A model generated the notes under the pieces. The model saw only the letters and a list, made by a program, of their open reading frames with translations, did no database searches and was not told the DNA's origin. Shown in pieces: positions 8,831 to 35,841 of a stretch of DNA of 64,000 bases. This DNA is from Pomacea canaliculata (taxonomy: Eukaryota > Mollusca > Gastropoda > Architaenioglossa > Ampullariidae): positions 13,947,950-14,011,949 of the forward strand of contig NC_037596.1 of NCBI RefSeq assembly GCF_003073045.1. Direction: 5' to 3'. A program made the translations under genes and the position numbers. Each line of letters starts with the position of its first letter. Position 1 is the stretch's first letter.

Positions 8831-11800
8831 CTATCCCATTTCCATGGGCTGCTCCTTCGGTATGCTGCTCTGCGGATCCACTTTAGAAGCCGCTGTATTT
8901 TGCTGTGATGAGAACAATACCATGGGATGGGTTGCAGGATCTGAATGTGTACAGGATTTTCTGGATGTTAACCTGCCATTCTGTTCACTCACTAGGCTGC
9001 CCACTTCACTTTGCATTCCAGTAGAAGAACTGGCTCCCTCAGCAGGAAGGATATTCAGTTTGGATTCTCTTTTAACCTTTTTCTCTGTTGCATTCTGTTT
9101 GCTTCTACTGGCTTTGCTTTTTGTCTTCTTACCTTTTTCAGGATTTGTTGGATCTGAAGTAGAATTCTTACCCTGTCCAGCTACAACATTGCTGGCACTT
9201 TCAACATCTGTCTTCTCCACTGAAGATTTTTCTTTGGAATGTTCAGAGAAAGCTGCAATACCAGACTGTTTTCCCCCTGACCAATTTTTCACAGGCTCTG
9301 AATCTGATTTCACAACACTAGTGCCTTCACCTTTCCGCGATTTCAGAGAATAGTCCTTCGGTTGATCTGCCACATCGTCAGGTTCATAAAATGCCTTGAC
9401 AACACCCAAATTATCCGGGATAATGTGATTAGCCGCAGCTTTGCTTTGACTATTTTCTGATGGCAAGGCATTCATTCTTGACAAAGGAATACCACTTGAT
9501 GCCAGAAAACTCCGCAGGTGTTGAAAACTAGAGGGCTGTGTGTTTAAGCTTGGTCTAACAGAATTTGTTGGTGACTGTCGCAGAGCAAGCAAGTCATCCG
9601 GTGTAACATGGCGCAATTCCACTGATCCACCACTGCTGCCGCTGGGATCGTTGGTGGATGAACGAAACAAAAATAGGGGCCGAGTTGCCTGGGTATGAGC
9701 CACAGATGGTAAAGTCCCCAAGACCCCAGAGCTGACTTTGTCACTCACTGCTGCTGAAGGGGAGGCTACTACTGGCATGACAGGAGTGAAAGAAGACACT
9801 CTCACTGCACTTTGTTCGGAAATAGGCACAAGTTTCAAACTGTGTTCTGCAGGGGTGGTTACCATGCCAACCTGACTGACACCTGGAGTTACAGATGTCA
9901 AACCAGCAAGTCTCGCCTGCAATGCTGTGGCAGGAGCAGAGGTAACCACTGGCTTTGGGCTTTCTCTCGCCTCTGCATTCTCTCCTCCATTTTGTTTTTC
10001 TGTCCAGGCCTTGATGATGAGGTTTTGAATAACCTTGGCTAGTGAAGCCTGAGGCACACCACTCTCGTCCACATCCATAGAGCATGCATTCGGTCCCAGC
10101 ATTCCCATGTTTAATCTGGGTGCATCACCTTCTTTGTGAATCGGAATATTCAGATGGTCTTTCATAGTGCTGTCTTTCAGGATAGTAGCTTCCTCAGGTG
10201 AAGGGCCCAGCTTGAAATTCTGTTTAATCTTGCCATCCACAACACAGTTCTCTTGCAACACAGACTGGGAAGGCAGCTTCGCACCTGGATGCAACGTCGC
10301 CGTGGCAACACCAGTGGTTGATTCACCTTGACCCTCGTTTGTAGACAGAGTTTGGCCCTTCAGCTGAACATAACTTTTGCCTGAAGAGAGTGCTTGGCTT
10401 CTACTCTGTGACTGAGCACTGCTCACTCTGGCTGCCATGTCAGAGAGCACACCAGCCATGCTCCCCTTCACCCTGTCCATTGCAGCTGGTTTGGATGAAT
10501 CTGAGCTGTCTTCTGACACCGCAATCTAAAAATTTGACAAAATGCTTTGTAGTTTTGGCATAACTTTTAGTCCATCAAATTATTTGAGAATTCAGTGATG
10601 ATGATTATGATAATTATGATTAATATATTAGGAATTCACATTATCAGTCCTTCCTTTCTCTATGAGAAATTTTTTAAAAAGTGCATGACAATCAGGTTGT
10701 ACACAGCAATCGTGTTTCAAATTCACCAAGTAACAATCATCATGACTAACAATTGTCTGTGCTATGAATTTGTGCTTCTGTTTATTAATTTTACTCCCCT
10801 CCTTTTGTATCTACCAGCTGCCTGCTCTTTCATCTGAGCTGAAGACCCATTAAGAAAAAGCGCTGAGCACACACCCTCACAAAAAAGCTATCTGAAGCTT
10901 TATGGTAAAGACATGTTTACCCTCTCCCACCAGAAGTCATAAAATCTCATGTCTTTATAGGAACAGTTTTCAACCCCAAACTCTTTGCTACATCTTCTGT
11001 GGCTGCTCTCCAATAACAGTCACATACCACCTATATGGAGCACATAACAAAGATATCAATAACCAGAATCAATCTGAATTTTTTTATCAGAAGAAGAGAA
11101 TCTCAGAGCAAGAAAACGACTTACTTCCAGTGCAGGAGGTGACTGTGTTTCCATGTCTTCACCAACATCATCAAGTCCTTCATCTACTGCTCGAGCAAGA
11201 ATGCGAGCGACACTGGTGTGACTTCGTCCTTGAGCTGCCATGGTGGGAATGACACCAGCATAGTTGGCAATTTCAGGATCTGCCCCTCGACGCAAAAGCA
11301 ATTCCACAATTGGCTTTTGATTTCCCTCAGCAGCATGGAACAACACTGTTCGACCACTCTTTCCATCCTAGAGAAACATAATAAAGTGTGACTAAACCAG
11401 GTTTTCAAAGTCATATGTCGAAGAAAAATCTAGCCTGTTGGTGGAGCACACAAGCATACATTATTTTACTCAAGAGAACGATCACTTAAGCACAATATTG
11501 ATCAAAAGTTTGATGTTCATTATAGATTATACCCAACCATTTTTCATCAGGTGTTTCAATTCCATCCACACATTTTCCAGTAGTTCCTGGAATATGAAAC
11601 TTTTGACCAGTCCTGTGCATAATCATTGAACCTGTAAGTATATCTTTCCATCCAGAAATTCCTTGTCATACATGCCACCACAATATAAAATGCAACATAA
11701 CTGATATGTAGCCACATGCAAATAAAACATACAAATCAATGAAAACAAAAATGAAGACAGTAAACTACTAAACCATGATGTTGATATCAGCTCCATGATC

Positions 11801-17800: not shown

Positions 17801-19616
17801 TATAGAACTGATAATATAGAATTTCAAGTCTAAAAAAAATGCAAAAGCTGAATAAACTGGTTCTTCTTGCTAAGGTTCTTCTTTCTGCTTATATTTACTC
17901 ACAAAGATGTTTATGTATATGCATATGCATACAAAATACATCTGCAAATATAAGTCATCTTTGCATGACCAGAAACTCTATTTTCTAGGCATTCTCTCAA
18001 CAAATTCACCACAGATGCCACCTTACTTATGAACATTCGAGTTACAATCATTTGGACAAACAGACTCGTATCCTCTTCTCACATATCAACTCAAATTTAT
18101 AGTAAGAATATGAAAGGTAATAAAATTTTATTATCACAGCATTTTATTAAAATGGCAAAATAACGACTTATGAACAATTCATGTTACAAACTTTTTCTGG
18201 AATGTAACTTGTTATTAAGTAGGGTGGCATCTGTAGTAAATTTATATTTTTACAAAAATAATTTAGTAATAGATAATAATTATTAGCCATGCAGCTTTTA
18301 AATGCTGCAGTATGTGAATGAGTTGTGATCATAACAAAGTCTGGTTAATGTTGATCTGAATGAGTGACAGTGTAACAGTATTAACATAATTCTATACAGG
18401 TATCATAAACTGTGTGAGCTGTGTAATTGCGATATGAGACAAAGTTGTATTTGTATTGTAATTTTTGTGTACCTTCTACAGTCCAAGTTGTCGCTGACAT
18501 ATTGCCAATTCAACTAAACATATGGACTCTTACTAAGATATTTGAATATATTTTCCTACCTGTGCTGTTCAGCTGGAGGGAGGCAATAGCATTAGGAAGA
18601 CTGGGAAGATTTGGAATGCTGGGCAGGCTTGTGAGCCCAATGCTGCCCAAAGAGACACTTGGCAGGGTGACACTGAGGGACAAACTGGGCAGATTTTCAG
18701 GAGTTCCAGACCCACTTGCTGCACTTACAGGTAAGCAAGTTGCTGCAACAGTTGTGGGCAAGGCCACCGCTGCACTCTGTACAGGTGTGATTCTGGGAAA
18801 CTGTTCTGCATCACTAAGGTGGCCCTGTGGTGCTGCTGCTGCTGTTGTTGCTAGGCTTGCGAATGAAACTACAGGAATAATATGAGCACCTGTGTGGAGG
18901 TTGGTCCTATCTGAAAGCGTGTGTTCGAATCCCTGCGATCCTGCGAGGTGAAACGCAACTCCCGGACCACCACGAAGGCCAATCTGCTGCTGCGTTGTAC
19001 CAGCCTGGGAAGTTTTCTCTCCTTTGCCAACATTTTTGGTGTTTTTGCGTCTTCCACGTGTAGCGTTCGCAGCATGCACAATCTGCACATGCGCAGAGTC
19101 TGTTATAGATGTCAGCGGCAACGAGAAATGGCCTAACGCCGATGAAGGCAGCGAAGAGATCGGCAAAACATGTGGCACACTCACCTGAGGTACGTTCAGG
19201 GTGACAGAGCTGACACTATTACCACTACCACCACTCTCTGTTGTAGCTGAACCCCGTCCTCGACCCCGGCCACGACTTGACCTACTTTTGGTTTCGCGTC
19301 CCGTTTCACGTTGTTCGCTCTTACCTCGGCCTCGCTCCTTCGTTCGGCTCTTCACGCTCTGTATTTTCTCCCCAGCAGGCTCTGAATCAGTTTGGAGGAT
19401 GCTTATGGCAGGCACCGTGGTGTTTGCGCCCGGAAAAGTCGCCGGCAAGCCCAAGGAAGACAGCGCTTCGGCAGCTGCCATTCTGTCTTCAATCTCCTTT
19501 GGGTCCATCGTGCTTCGTGCGGTTGTGGTTACGCCTTGTGGAGTCGCACTTGTTGTCCAGTACTTTCCGTCGATTCTAGGTCGGTTACCTTGAAATTTCT
19601 GCACTGTAACGGTCAT
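8831..19616 (-). CDS. Nuclear IkB-like ankyrin protein (BCL3 / IkB-zeta type)
   Basis: Eight exons join in phase: 19616-18560, 17566-17237, 15717-15600, 13042-12934, 12593-12392, 11862-11774, 11367-11125 and 10525-8831, giving 1280 residues. The ankyrin block (about residues 497-700) opens with DEDGDLPLHIAVVHEN, continues TPLHLAIKLAYLPGI, APLHTAVMNNDIELVKKL and GRTVLFHAAEGNQKPI, and follows the repeat order and exon pattern of BCL3/NFKBIZ rather than cytoplasmic IkB. The long N-terminal part has an RG-rich stretch near residues 115-123 and a basic KKRK in exon 2 that could be a nuclear localisation signal. The C-terminal 565 residues are low-complexity and Ser/Thr-rich with a Lys-rich patch (KGKKTKSKASRSK). 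Family members bind NF-kB dimers in the nucleus and modulate target genes; that role is inferred. No serine degron of the DSGxxS type was seen near the ankyrins. Two kappaB sites precede the start codon. The ATG at 19616 is the first in the open frame; a more upstream non-coding exon is possible. Confidence 0.88.
13160..14815 (+). mobile_element. Decayed non-LTR retrotransposon (CR1/Rex1/L2-like LINE) in an intron of the IkB-like gene
   Basis: Broken frames on the plus strand, opposite to the host gene, resemble a CR1/Rex1/L2-type ORF2 in correct order. There is a linker after the endonuclease (LQDCCETTDWNVF, then NNKSWVTKYIENK near 13310); the start of the reverse transcriptase (DQLAKILLGL, then a DSLDPIQF-like stretch near 14080-14110); the C-terminal part (YKYLG-like position near 14440, LYCLREISLL, then LQILYTSIICSMTFSLVFWG); and an FIPAAI-like ending near 14780. 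The central catalytic part near 14170-14310 appears lost, and many stops and frameshifts are present. It is a dead copy, interrupted by a second element at about 13545-13815. Confidence 0.75.
13545..13815 (+). mobile_element. 3' end of a retroposon with TTTTGAT tail, nested in the LINE
   Basis: The last ~130 bp (actgtgtgttaaatgtctgt... gacaataaagtctg) match the reverse complement of 40327-40456 closely, and both copies end in short tandem tails, (ATTTTG)n here and (ATTTG)n there. Tandem tails of this kind are typical of CR1/L2-like LINEs and SINEs that borrow their 3' ends. The element interrupts the reverse-transcriptase remains on both sides (before 13500 and after 13820), so it inserted into the older LINE. 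The left border is approximate. Confidence 0.65.
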
Positions 19617-29690: not shown

Positions 29691-30482
29691 TTACGCAACA
29701 AAGTACACACCGACGACTCACTGAGTAACACAGGATTTAGTTCCTACACAAGGCGACACACTCAAGGTGAATGGATTAACTGCGTACACAATATACACAT
29801 AGATAAGATAAAGAAAAAGAGTAAGGTAGTAGGTAAGGCCATCTACCCATAGGGCAGGGAATTATAAATGGTTGACCCTCTCTAGGATACAACACATCTA
29901 AGGCAGAACGGAAACATCTCCTGCACTGTTATCAATGACAAAAAAAAAAGAAAAAAAAGAGCTAACTGTTGCTGGGTATGTGGAGTGGGGTGTCTGGCAA
30001 ACCATCGACCCATGAGGATGGACACAACTCGTATACCACACATATATACATCTTGTGACACAGGGCAAGACAGGGCTACCTTCCTGTTTCAATAATCATA
30101 CAAATGCCAGTTCATACTGCATAGTTGTATGGTGAATATTTCAGAGTACCCTTTCAGGCATGTCAGTAAAAAATACTATGCTTGCTTCATTTAGGGGTAT
30201 AAAATTTGTACAAGCTAGGTGACATTATTGGCCACTCCCTTCCTTACGCCCATTCAACCACCTTTTCTCAGAATTTCTAGGTGTGAAGAAACACAGTTTC
30301 GTTTCCTAGTGTTTCATAGAAAGGTACAAGATCGTGTTTGGTTGGTGCGTAAAGGAGAGTGGGGGGAGGGGTTGGGATTGACATACTACATTGGGAATTC
30401 CCATTCTGCCTAGTCATTGTCCACATATCCTTGCTCAAAAGCATATTCGTACACTCACACAACACACGCTGGATAACAGGTC

Positions 30483-30488
30483 TTTATT
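30483..30488 (-). terminator. Candidate distal poly(A) signal of the selenoprotein gene
   Basis: AATAAA on the minus strand (plus strand tttatt). If used, the 3' UTR of the peroxiredoxin-like gene would be about 3.2 kb and would contain an antisense SINE. A nearer alternative is at 31686-31691, so this choice is uncertain. Confidence 0.3.
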
Positions 30489-31207
30489 CTGGAAATTCAA
30501 GTAATAGTTGCAATAAGACGTTCAGATGAATTGCAAAATATTGATAACCCCTAAAAACCCAACAACAGAGGTAAAACAAGTAGGAAAGTCTTTTTTCCAA
30601 ATTTATACAAAATTGAGAAGAGGTAATAAATATTGATAAAAAAACGCACAAGCTTACCAAATGTTACAAAAATATCATTCATAAAAATTATGTAGCAAAG
30701 CACTGTTTTAGTGCAAAAACAATGAAGTCATGTAGGAGAGATAATATGAAATTTTAGTAAACCTAAACTTGACCTTACCTGGCCCTTTTGTCAATCCCCA
30801 CGGTTCAGATACATTTGCTTCACCAGCCACCTTCTCGAGTTTATTTCTGTGGATTCTGTAGGTAAACTAGCAATCTTTGTTACCATTGTTAGCCTTCTAC
30901 CTTCCTTCCCACTCCACACGCACACCTCTTCACAGACATGTTTCTGTGATCTAGTCCCTTAATGAGCCAGCAGTAAATGATTTTCATGATGGGAGGACCA
31001 AATTAAGTGATGAACACACACGCACATATGCATTTTGAAACACTGCTGTCAGTATCCCGTGTAACTGTCCTCCAGCATAAGAAAACACTTTCACAATGCA
31101 TTATTTTTTTGACCATAAATGAAGCATATAAAGGTTAGTTTTTCAAAATTATGGACCAGACCCAAAGTTACTTAGTCATATTTATTCATTCATTCCTTGA
31201 CTTGGAT

Positions 31208-31592
31208 CGGGCAGTCCAGGTGGTGCAATGGTTAGCATCTGTCACCAGTACAGTGGAGGTTGTCTTGGGCATACTGTTCTTTCGCTGCATATAGCATCTG
31301 TTTAAAGGCCCGGCTGCCTTGCCCTGATGTAGCCTTATTTTCTGACCGAGCATAAAAACACCAATTCCCCCCGTCCCCTCCCGACTTGTACCAGCAATAC
31401 TGGTCTGAACTGCTAGCTTGCAAATGTGAAGAGGTAGACTGGTCATTCAATGCAGGACCTACCCATCCTCGAGAAAGACCAAAGTGCTGAGCCTTGTCAG
31501 CTGCTGTGCTTATCCAGCTGTTCCTCTGACAACTAGTAGTAGTAGTGGTAGCAGTAGCACCAACATAACTGGGACCAGTCAAGTAACGAATG
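31208..31592 (+). mobile_element. tRNA-derived SINE, near full length, copy 1
   Basis: An A-box-like TGGTGCAATGG (31221-31231) is followed by a decayed B-box region and a ~330-bp body shared with the copy at 47303-47690: gcatactgttctttc, gcatctgtttaaaggc, then a late block ending in accagtcaagtaacgaatga. This head-plus-body structure is that of a pol III SINE of about 390 bp. It lies antisense to the minus-strand selenoprotein gene, either inside its long 3' UTR or just past it. Three copies occur in this window. Confidence 0.75.
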
Positions 31593-31685
31593 ACAATAAC
31601 CTTAAGGTTCAGATCTTAGGCGTGGTCCATAATTTATCAAAGTGCTGGTGATTGTACCTCCAAGCCACACCAACAAGACTAAAAG

Positions 31686-31691
31686 TTTATT
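31686..31691 (-). terminator. Candidate proximal poly(A) signal of the selenoprotein gene
   Basis: AATAAA on the minus strand, about 500 bases beyond the SECIS-like hairpin and about 2 kb beyond the stop codon at 33670. It would include the SECIS in the mRNA and leave out the SINE. Confidence 0.35.
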
Positions 31692-31726
31692 TAAAACAGG
31701 TTAATAAAGTCTAGTATGAAAAAAAT

Positions 31727-31740
31727 TATATATATATATT
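31727..31740. repeat. TA dinucleotide run
   Basis: A short (TA)n microsatellite in non-coding DNA beyond the probable 3' UTR of the minus-strand selenoprotein gene. Confidence 0.7.
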
Positions 31741-32197
31741 TTTGACCTTAATGCTACTGTCTTTTCCTGCTTCATTGTACGCAAAGACTGTCACATTGTA
31801 CAATAGAGAATAGCCTTTAAAAAGACTTGATGTATTATAGTTCAACACAATTCGAGCCAAGAATTTACCAAAAATGTCAGTACAGTGATCTCACTATAAG
31901 CCAGCTCTGTCTCGATATATGCTAAGGTGATTGAAGATATATACATTATTAAAAAACACACACAACTGCACAAAAGAATGACTCAATTGAATAATGCTGC
32001 CTTATACTGTTGGTGAAATATCAATGTGTGTGAAGATAAGTACATTAGAAAGCAGACCCAAGAATATGCACAACTGGCAAGCAGATGCAAAAAGGCATGT
32101 ATTTTAATGGAATGCACTGTTAGTTAAGCAGCCTCACTTTCTTGAACTCACAAGCACCTGCTGAGGGTCTTCTCGTCTTTCTCAGCTCAGTTCCTCA

Positions 32198-32275
32198 GGA
32201 CAAGAAAAATGTTTTCCACTCATGCTTGGTAACCATACTCTGCAGCTAGTTTCTTACCAAACAGTCATTCTGTCC
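32198..32275 (-). promoter_or_regulatory. SECIS-like hairpin in the 3' UTR (selenocysteine insertion element)
   Basis: On the minus strand ATGAC (32268-32264) is followed by the stem TGTTTGGTAA (32263-32254), an apical part beginning GAAAC with unpaired A residues, the pairing strand TTACCAAGCA (32232-32223) and TGAG (32222-32219). The ten stem positions all pair, one as G-U. ATGA opposite TGA forms the non-Watson-Crick quartet, and a possible ACU/AGU mini-stem in the apical loop would make it a form II SECIS. A basal helix may form from GGACA (32275-32271) and TGTCC (32202-32198), with an asymmetric internal loop. The order quartet, 10-bp helix, AAA, helix, TGA is the eukaryotic SECIS layout, as in the GPX1 mRNA. 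It lies about 1.4 kb past the stop codon, on the sense strand of a gene with an in-frame TGA. Confidence 0.8.
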
Positions 32276-33669
32276 AAGTACTGGGAAAAGAAAGAGGGAA
32301 ACTGAAACAAAAAAAGTCACCAAAAAGTGATGGTGGGTGTGGTGGAGAATGAGTGGAAAATGCGTGAATTAGGCACAACTTCTGTACTTCCAGCTGACTG
32401 AAACAATGATCTTCTGGCCCAATTATATCATATCATGTAGGTCAAATACTACATGTATCCTAAAAGGAAAAAAAACAAAAAAAAAAAGAAACCCCTATGG
32501 CTCATCATCTTTATGATTACCTCAACACTCCCCAGTTAATCTACTGTTACAAGATCTCTGTATTATCTTCTTCGGTATTATCTAAACTATGACACGGCCC
32601 AGTGTTTCGAACTTTCTGCAAAAAAAGTATGGAAAGTTTTGAGTTACTCTACACAAAGAAAAAACCCAGCTCTTAAAAACATTTGGATGGGACTACATGA
32701 GAAAGGTAAGTTCCCTAGGTGATCATCTCAAAGATGTCTTTGCTGGAAAAATGGCCTTTAAAAATGTGTCTGCTGCAATGTCGTTTTAAAATTATTGCTG
32801 TGAATGAATGAATTAGGAATAAATACAAATACAAGAGGTGGCAAACTGGTTCTGCTTGCCAATCGTATTTGAAATATTATGTTTACTTCTACAGACAGCA
32901 TGTAATCACAGAGATGCACCCTTCAAAAACACAGCAAGGCCGTTTATCCCACTGTCAAATGTGCTTAAGAAGAAACATTTTATCGGTCTAAAAAAGCAAT
33001 TTCTTTTGTGTTCTTTTTGCTCTGAACTGAAGATGCTGTCTTGAATGAGCCTAATTACTGAATTTAATACTGAAACCCTATTCCACAGAGACAAAACAAA
33101 GGATGAGGTTTAGTAAGCCATGGGAGATAAATTCCAAGAAATTTAATAATATGTACTTCCTTGAAAAGTCAGTGAAGTTATTACAGACTACAAAGAAAGA
33201 AATGAAGGCAACCACCCAATAACCAAGAGTGTACAAAGCATCTCAATGCAGAACCTCAAGAGAAGATGGTGAGAATCCTGCCCAACATCACCAGTCTCTA
33301 GAGTCTAGAGGTTCCAGGTTAGGGGCTGACCACATCACACATATTTTGCACTTATTATGGCAAAGTGCTTGTAGCTTATTGTTTGATGTTTTAATGGACA
33401 ATATTATTATAATACCTGATGAGATCAAAAGCTTCCCACTATCACAATCAATGAAAAAATTAAAACTGCTTAAGTTTAGTAAATCATAAAAAAGAAGAAA
33501 TCCATAACAGTACTCCATCATTAAAAAAATCTAATTGATTAAAAACATTAAGGATAAGGTCAAGTCACGACGAACTCCAATACACAGGAGTGGCATATGG
33601 GTAAACCAAAATGGATGTTAGCTATCTACCTTGCAAGAGTTTAGCAGACTCCTTGCTCAAGGTGGAATT

Positions 33670-35841
33670 CTAACGCTTTGAGCGGCTCTCTTCTCTGAAT
33701 TTCAGCCAGTCATCAAGTGCTTTTTTGTAGTCAACTCTGGCATTATGTATCCCCACCAGCTCGAGAACCTCTTGCATGCTAGGCCAATCTGCTGGATGCT
33801 CTTCAGTATGCTGTAAGCAAGAGAGGAAAAAAGCCAATTCAAAGTTTTTGGAACATAACATGTAGCCTTGTCAGACTGCTAACCATTATCGCTGATTACT
33901 ACTCACACCCTGGTTATCCATAATTCACCAGACATTTTTTTTTTTGGGTAGGGGATCCTACTCTTCCATTTTACTGCATTTCCTATTGTGCATAAATCAT
34001 GTAAGTGAACTCCAAATCACATAAAGAAATTTGTCAAGAGACTATGAAAACACAAATGATTTGGTATCAGGGTCTAAAAAAAGAGTTTAAGTCAGATGTT
34101 TCACTGTGTAAAAACACTGTTTTCTTAAGACACCTGAAATCTATTATATTGTCATTACCTGAGTGAGTTTTACATCCATGAAAACACATCACTTAATTAA
34201 AGCAGTTTCTTAACATCAAGGGTGAAGATCACTTAGTATTAATACATGTTTATTATGTGTTTTGTTCTGCTGTTTGATACAACCCCCAAAAATGGTTAAA
34301 TAAGAGTCTAACACCCACAATAATTTTACCTGAGTCAAAAACCCTTGCATTTTATGAATGGGAAACTCCAATTTGAATGTTCTTTGTTAATTTAGAAGGT
34401 AATGGCTAAAGACTTAAGCATGTGTTTAGCAATAATAATAATAACAGATGGAAGCTTGTTTTTCATGCAGTGTAAAAGCAACTGTCAGCAAGCCACAGCA
34501 ACAGAGCACACCCCTGATGATTCCACTGATCAAACAGTGCTCAAGTCACATGCATATATATATATCTGCATTGGTGCCTGCATGTGAGCTACACAAGCTA
34601 TTTTTACCTGATAGAGAACATTTTTATCCTTGTCCAAAAGAAGTGTTCCTCCCTGTTGCCATGAATCACCAGCAAGATGGGATGTTTCCTTTGCTAAGCG
34701 GATACCTAAATAAAGTTAGTTAACAATTAGCTAATAAATTATATATGTAACATGCTACAAACCATAAAGCTACCTCAAAAGAATCTGCAGCAAAAAGGAA
34801 CTGAACATGATGCCATGCAGTCCCTGAAGTCACTATTAAAACTATTCAAAGTATTTTCACTAGTCTCACATTATATCATGCAAGAAATTCATGTATGTTT
34901 TGCTGTCAGGCAATTTCAAAAAAACAGTAAATACCTATTATTTTCTAAAAGGATGTTTTAATATCGTTATTTACTATAAAACATTTAACATTAAATATGC
35001 TGACAAAAATAGATCAACATTACTGATTGGCCACACTCACAACCCCTACCAAGTAGTTTTTCCAATCACATATGCACACACACACACAATGAAAGAAAAA
35101 TCTCTGTGTATCCGTACCTTCCACGATACCTTTCAACCATAGGTTTTGAAGCCAGAGTAAAAGGCCGCACCAGCGAACGGAAAACACCTCTTTTTGAGTT
35201 GGAAATACTTGTACAGGCTAACAGAAGGGTCTGTAAAAAGGTCACCACAGAAAAGACCGGAGTTTCTCTGCAAGTATTCAGCCATTTGTTCTGGTGTTGA
35301 GCTTCCAATGAAAATCAGGCGAGTTTTGGTGGAGGAGAGAACATCCGACAGATAGGACAGGCCTGTACTTTGAGTAAGCTGTGGACACAAAATACAGAAA
35401 CCTAAATCTAGTAACGTATCTCTCTCCTCAAAATAAATCAACTTACAGTTTAGTGATCCAAGGAACCAAGTCGAAACGGTAATTTTTTAATTGTTCTGTT
35501 TATAGCCACCCCATTCATGAAACAAATTTGATAAACAACCATCTCTACTAATGATCCTACCTCTTCTCGAAAGGATGAAAAAACTAGCTCACAACAAAAA
35601 CAAACTACAAAAAAGTTTCCATGGTAAAAAGTTGTCAACTCTTTTTTTTATTTTGCATTTCGCGTTTCATAATGTCATTTAAGAAAATTTACCAAGCCAC
35701 TCATGCAAAGTTGCGCAGAAAAACCACCAAAGAATATTTATCATCCCCCATTGGAAGAATGGAGGAGGCAGAAACTTTCAATCCTGTTGAATCGAAAATT
35801 TCCAATTGATCGAGACTTGACGGCAAGTCAGCAGCGGCCAT
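33670..35841 (-). CDS. Peroxiredoxin-like 2 (SelU/SelL-type) selenoprotein
   Basis: Exons seen: 35841-35693 (start MAAADLPSSLDQLEIFDSTG, then LVVFLRNFA, TGA, V, A); 35378-35138 (LTQSTGLSYLSDVLSSTKTR, LIFIGSSTPEQMAEYL, DLFTDPSVSLYKYF); 34705-34608 (GDSWQQGGTLLLDKDKNVLY); and 33810-33670 (EEHPADWPSMQEVLELVG, stop TAG). The last three join in phase. The layout is that of the AhpC/TSA-like PRXL2 family: VVFLR before the redox motif, then IxIG, then the WQQGGTLLLD strand. Relatives have C or U at the TGA position, followed by xxC (or xxU in SelL). The predicted product is a small thioredoxin-fold oxidoreductase. The codon after U-V-A is split by the first intron as TG|, and the bases that complete it are not settled: a short exon or an indel near 35560 must supply one base modulo three. 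A second open frame through 35205-35115 (QLKRGVFRSLVRPF) also looks protein-like. PRXL2 family: confident; selenoprotein: likely. Confidence 0.78.
35701..35703 (-). other. In-frame TGA, predicted selenocysteine codon (residue 47)
   Basis: The exon reads ...TTT GCA TGA GTG GCT TG|gtaaat. The TGA falls exactly where PRXL2 proteins carry the first Cys of CxxC and where SelU/SelL proteins carry Sec. No consensus donor lies before it, so it cannot easily be spliced out. A SECIS-like hairpin downstream supports recoding. Confidence 0.75.

Follow-up and report, generated by a model that had tools for sequence, protein, structure and literature searches.

The window, a stretch of 64,000 nucleotides of Pomacea canaliculata DNA, very probably carries on its minus strand a single-copy apple-snail gene for a SelL-related peroxiredoxin-like (PRXL2/AhpC-TSA_2) selenoprotein, in which a UGA would be read as selenocysteine (Sec). 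The sequence evidence strongly supports Sec recoding at codon 47, which the preliminary description had put forward as the best reading of the locus. The TGA lies on the column of a catalytic Cys, two database proteins splice after it, and credible residues ahead of its column are found in none of 75 relatives; a SECIS-like core, genes for tRNA-Sec and EEFSEC, and other selenoprotein genes with TGA in the same genome add to this. The features of the locus are collected in Table 1.

Table 1. Features of the putative selenoprotein gene (window positions)
Feature	Position	Strand	Remarks
Exon 1	35693..35841	minus	149 bases, ATG start to donor TG/gtaaat
In-frame TGA, proposed selenocysteine, first position of UxxC	35701..35703	minus	codon 47
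Exon 2	35118..35378	minus	donor GAAG/gtacgg; tblastn with P0002, three-frame translation
Exon 3	34608..34705	minus	contains ETSHLAGDSWQQGGT
Exon 4	33670..33810	minus	through stop codon TAG 33672-33670
SECIS-like core	32219..32268	minus	ATGAC, 10-bp helix, G, AAA, apical loop, TGAG; 1,402 bases after stop
First AATAAA downstream of SECIS-like core	31686..31691	minus	further AATAAA beyond

Exon 1 gives the product MAAADL...LVVFLRNFA-U-V-A-(C), in which 46 residues ending in KYSLVVFLRNFA precede the TGA, and the TGA is followed by GTG GCT TG up to the donor. The motif is U-V-A-C (UxxC), with a Cys at its second position encoded by TG/C, a codon split by the intron. When aligned with the PDB entry 9us9 using phmmer, the TGA codon falls on the first Cys of FGCVVC, a CxxC motif. 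The TGA had been described as standing at the redox position of a clean first exon with no consensus donor before it, and both observations were borne out. There are five GT dinucleotides in exon 1 upstream of the TGA, and the only one that fits the frame of exon 2, at base 20, is a poor donor, matching 3 of 8 consensus bases where the actual donor matches 6. The 46-residue piece before the TGA, searched alone, gave no match and no homologue.

Two database proteins share the junction 35693/35378, just after the TGA, and an initial guess at the splicing was dropped on their evidence. The first, P0001, is the NCBI protein from Pomacea canaliculata, which is flagged LOW QUALITY. Its start codon is an out-of-frame ATG overlapping the TGA; its first 24 residues are those of the window read from that ATG, and it joins ATGAGTGGCTTG to exon 2; mis-annotation of this kind by gene callers had been forecast. 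The second, P0002, starts MACLLKVQA, and the window directly after the TGA reads VACLLKVQA. The contig that encodes P0002 is most likely spliced, because its 1,235 bases are fewer than the 1,709 bases spanned by exons 2-4 in the window. From a spliced contig we infer that the exon 1 bases following the TGA would be present in transcripts and that Cys would occupy the second motif position, as it does in both P0002 and P0003. The latter has the same start as P0002 and is 74% identical to a conceptual chimera, made by joining window exon 1, its TGA entered as Cys, to P0002.

When P0002 was used to search the genome (440,159,624 bases in 24 contigs), three exon matches were obtained, all at the window locus. 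Identity to P0002 is 100% over 33 residues in exon 3 and 97.9% over 47 residues in exon 4. In exon 2, tblastn and three-frame translation show the similarity passing through frames 1, 0, 1, 0 and 2, which implies four one-base frame breaks, absent from the preliminary description, at about 35361, 35189, 35159 and 35135; the adjacent exons show no such breaks. Close to 35135 the sequence also has another in-frame TGA, which was considered as a second Sec and rejected, being a product of the frame break. The breaks are likelier to be assembly errors than decay, because P0002 reads intact across exon 2. They could also be real lesions of a decaying pseudogene in which the TGA is a nonsense mutation, a reading that gains from the combination of four breaks with an in-frame stop and from the LOW QUALITY flag on the NCBI model. 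Yet it is very unlikely, as the breaks are confined to exon 2, with exons 3 and 4 nearly identical to P0002, P0002, whose contig is in all likelihood spliced, is intact through exon 2, and more distant relatives also start just past or near the TGA column, which a species-specific nonsense mutation does not explain.

Searches for such relatives gave 15 and 75 proteins, and all 75 were aligned to the chimera. They comprise molluscs, one Balamuthia record and many contigs, and none shows a Cys form, in a search that covered only proteins of 0.55-1.75 times the query length sharing short words with it and that could miss such forms. None of the 75 has credible sequence ahead of the TGA column. 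The alignments of 43 relatives, including Mytilus, Haliotis, Crassostrea and Saccostrea records as well as contigs, start between residues 47 and 62, i.e., within 15 residues of the TGA column; the other 31 start further down, and many of these are single-exon pieces. P0005 alone starts before residue 47, from residue 42, and P0012-P0014 start at residue 47; the leading letters of these four were judged by eye to be intron-derived. For relatives that come from genome contigs, closure of the frame may also be due to an intron; this complication does not arise in a spliced contig, P0002 being one example. Searches of prokaryote genomes and viral contigs gave 22 and 24 pattern-matching stretches, respectively, none of which was confirmed as a relative. 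These data suggest that the database records found for the SelL-like family are truncated at the active site.

Taken at face value, the starts of the relatives that reach this region, all downstream of the TGA column, would fit a protein translated from beyond the TGA without recoding, and so devoid of its first strand and its first redox residue, as the NCBI model and ORF callers take it to be; an ATG that overlaps the TGA is also at hand. This is less probable still than decay, since that ATG is out of frame with codons 48-56, which match P0002, and the residues upstream extend the domain match, by 25.6 bits with the typed Cys. Annotation with a downstream start is, moreover, a common error for vertebrate selenoproteins (PMC12822975). 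Loss of the TGA through splicing or RNA editing, or its translation as another amino acid, is scarcely credible: no evidence supporting any of these was found, P0002 retains the amino acids specified by the 8 exon bases after the TGA, and splicing would have to use the poor donor at exon base 20.

For a SECIS element, the preliminary description had directed the search to the minus strand of 30480-33670, with no particular hairpin named. A SECIS-like core does lie there, at 32268-32219, although Rfam SECIS_1 does not report it. A loose scan of the 3' side returned this one candidate, with an energy of -12.6, and was non-discriminating, giving 1.05 matches per shuffled UTR and 6 of 100 shuffles at -12.5 or lower. 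A strict core pattern (ATGA or GTGA, a helix of 9-12 pairs, AA in place, and GA) was then employed, written after the candidate had been seen. With no mismatch allowed, the candidate is the only match in the window on both strands (128 kb), and 2 of 1000 shuffled UTRs match; allowing one mismatch raises these counts to five sites in the window and 91 of the 1000 shuffled UTRs. Across 27 other loci, some overlapping (209,768 bases over both strands), there was one further perfect match, and 11 matches at up to one mismatch, counting that perfect match and the SelU1 core described below.

The strict pattern was also tried on six other selenoprotein genes of the snail, of which the SelN, C4 GPX and GPX4 places had already been shown by Rfam. 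Two of the six match without mismatch (SelN and the C13 GPX) and four with one mismatch, which adds the C4 GPX and SelU1, a second match in the SelU1 stretch being set aside. GPX4 and a SelW-like gene are missed even at one mismatch. In its spacing (ATGAC, ten pairs, G, AAA) the SelN core is identical to the candidate, whose lower helix looks weak on visual inspection. Genome-wide, five Rfam SECIS_1 matches were listed of 150 scored candidates, all under the cut-off; three adjoin genes recognised as SelN, GPX and GPX4, and the remaining two (L010 and L012) were not tied to any gene. We presume that the candidate is the working SECIS and that it is part of the transcript. ATTAAA signals lie on both sides of it, one past it at 32108 and three after the stop codon but ahead of the core, at 33395, 33147 and 33068; if the transcript ends at one of these, the core lies outside it.

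Genes for Sec insertion are present in the genome, with a tRNA-Sec gene (78.4 bits, anticodon tca) and the EEFSEC domain PF21208 at 117.1 bits, a domain found in 0 of 14 control genomes. For SepSecS, the genome search gave no candidate. The sole other PRXL2-like match over the Pfam cut-off is on C2 and reads ITFLRRFG-TGA-AFCRLGAKEL, which from its sequence we take to be SelU1; a match at C8:9968812 (19.2 bits) was taken as a chance match. This SelU1/PRXL2A-like locus (L028, G000:C2:33435394-33435513, minus strand) has an in-frame TGA and a SECIS-like core about 1.4 kb past the last domain match. With a putative Sec at the same column and a UxxC motif, SelU1 is the best in-genome control.

Several other loci in the genome also resemble selenoprotein genes. 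Three GPX genes have the TGA after NVA.. in the usual place, in exons on C10, C13 and C4 (L018, L020 and L022 of G000) that were found with PF00255, and SECIS cores lie downstream of them on C10 and C4 (by Rfam) and on C13 (by the strict scan). Among the SelN, GPX and GPX4 pieces, Pfam confirmed only GPX4. An exon on C8 (L011, G000:C8:7925156) reads SC-TGA-GS and has a SECIS core, and was recognised by eye as presumably SelN. A SelW-like exon of the Rdx family (L025, G000:C2:23789810) begins GK-TGA-GYEPRYRALKDAILKQIPDAEISGG, and the strict scan found no SECIS in about 8 kb there with 0 or 1 mismatch. Elsewhere in the window, open frames of 562 and 368 codons at 8831-10519 and 18510-19616 on the minus strand have no Pfam match (E 0.01).

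Family membership was assessed with profile models, using both the chimera and a first reading of the window in which Cys was typed at the TGA and some frames were still wrong. PF13911 (AhpC-TSA_2, cut-off 27) gave 52.4 bits for the first reading and 60.5 for the chimera. NCBIfam NF040769 (SelL_rel_redox), the only NCBIfam match for the whole protein, gave 89 and 101.5 bits, both below the cut-off of 120 in a collection that serves bacterial and archaeal genomes. Adding exon 1 to P0002 raises the NF040769 score from 75.9 to 101.5 bits, part of the gain coming from the typed Cys, and the match, which for P0002 begins at model position 39, then begins at 12. Among solved structures, the nearest by sequence is 9us9, a prostamide/prostaglandin F synthase (E 2.5e-10), which is presumably PRXL2B; in the related entry 9usa both motif Cys are replaced by Ser. 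The PRXL2/SelU/SelL family had been named for this gene, and the assignment can be narrowed: NF040769 and PF13911 point to a SelL-related peroxiredoxin-like protein, and the SelU part falls away, with a separate SelU1 gene on C2.

Two Sec residues are reported for SelL (PMC3473315, PMC3316567, PMC12822975); they are two apart and served by one SECIS (PMC3316567), and their UxxU motif forms a diselenide (PMC12822975). The window gene shares with SelL/SELENOL the peroxiredoxin-like fold, a putative Sec first in the redox motif and, here, one SECIS-like core, but its motif is UxxC where that of SelL is UxxU. The snail's own SelU1/PRXL2A resembles it in having a TGA at the same column and UxxC, but is a separate gene, and NF040769 gives 22.6 bits for a 57-residue SelU1 piece compared with 35.5 for a 64-residue piece of the window protein. 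With a separate SelU1-like gene on C2, orthology of the window gene to PRXL2A is not supported. The synthase 9us9 is alignable over residues 37-185 with its CxxC on the U/C columns, but is a Cys form, and scores 48.5 bits with NF040769 for a 150-residue piece compared with 75.9 for P0002, also without the N-terminus. A likeness to PRXL2C/AAED1 comes from annotation names alone, NCBI naming P0001 AAED1 and the mussel relative P0008 peroxiredoxin-like 2C. We call the window protein a SelL-related, probably single-Sec selenoprotein, a variant of a known family and not SelU1, because it has UxxC in place of UxxU and is not the SelU1 gene. Literature searches returned no report of this Pomacea gene in the text they retrieved.

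In animals, Sec is inserted at UGA by the combined action of a SECIS element, SBP2, EEFSEC and tRNA-Sec. For the snail protein we infer the same route, in which the UGA at codon 47 would be read as Sec with a SECIS in the 3' UTR (32268-32219 being the best candidate), SBP2, EEFSEC and tRNA-Sec. The resulting Sec-x-x-Cys motif would lie where the first helix of a thioredoxin-like fold begins. By analogy, because of the UxxC motif and the PRXL2 proteins, Sec would be the attacking residue and, as a peroxide or a disulfide is reduced, would form a selenenyl-sulfide with the Cys located three residues further along.

If this is correct, a selenoprotein is added to the gastropods. An invertebrate survey, in its Table 1 and section 5, lists SelL for five of six invertebrates and does not list it for the snail Lottia (PMC3473315). 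It is conceivable, if a little short of probable on present sequences, that the SelL-like family has a single-Sec branch in snails. In this branch the second Sec of UxxU would have become Cys or would never have been Sec, giving a selenenyl-sulfide enzyme with the attacking Sec kept throughout. Should that be true, Sec in the SelL-like family may be nearly irreplaceable, because no Cys form was seen among the 75 relatives. With a UxxC version of a SelL-like protein, the step between diselenide (UxxU) and selenenyl-sulfide (UxxC) chemistry would also become testable within one family.
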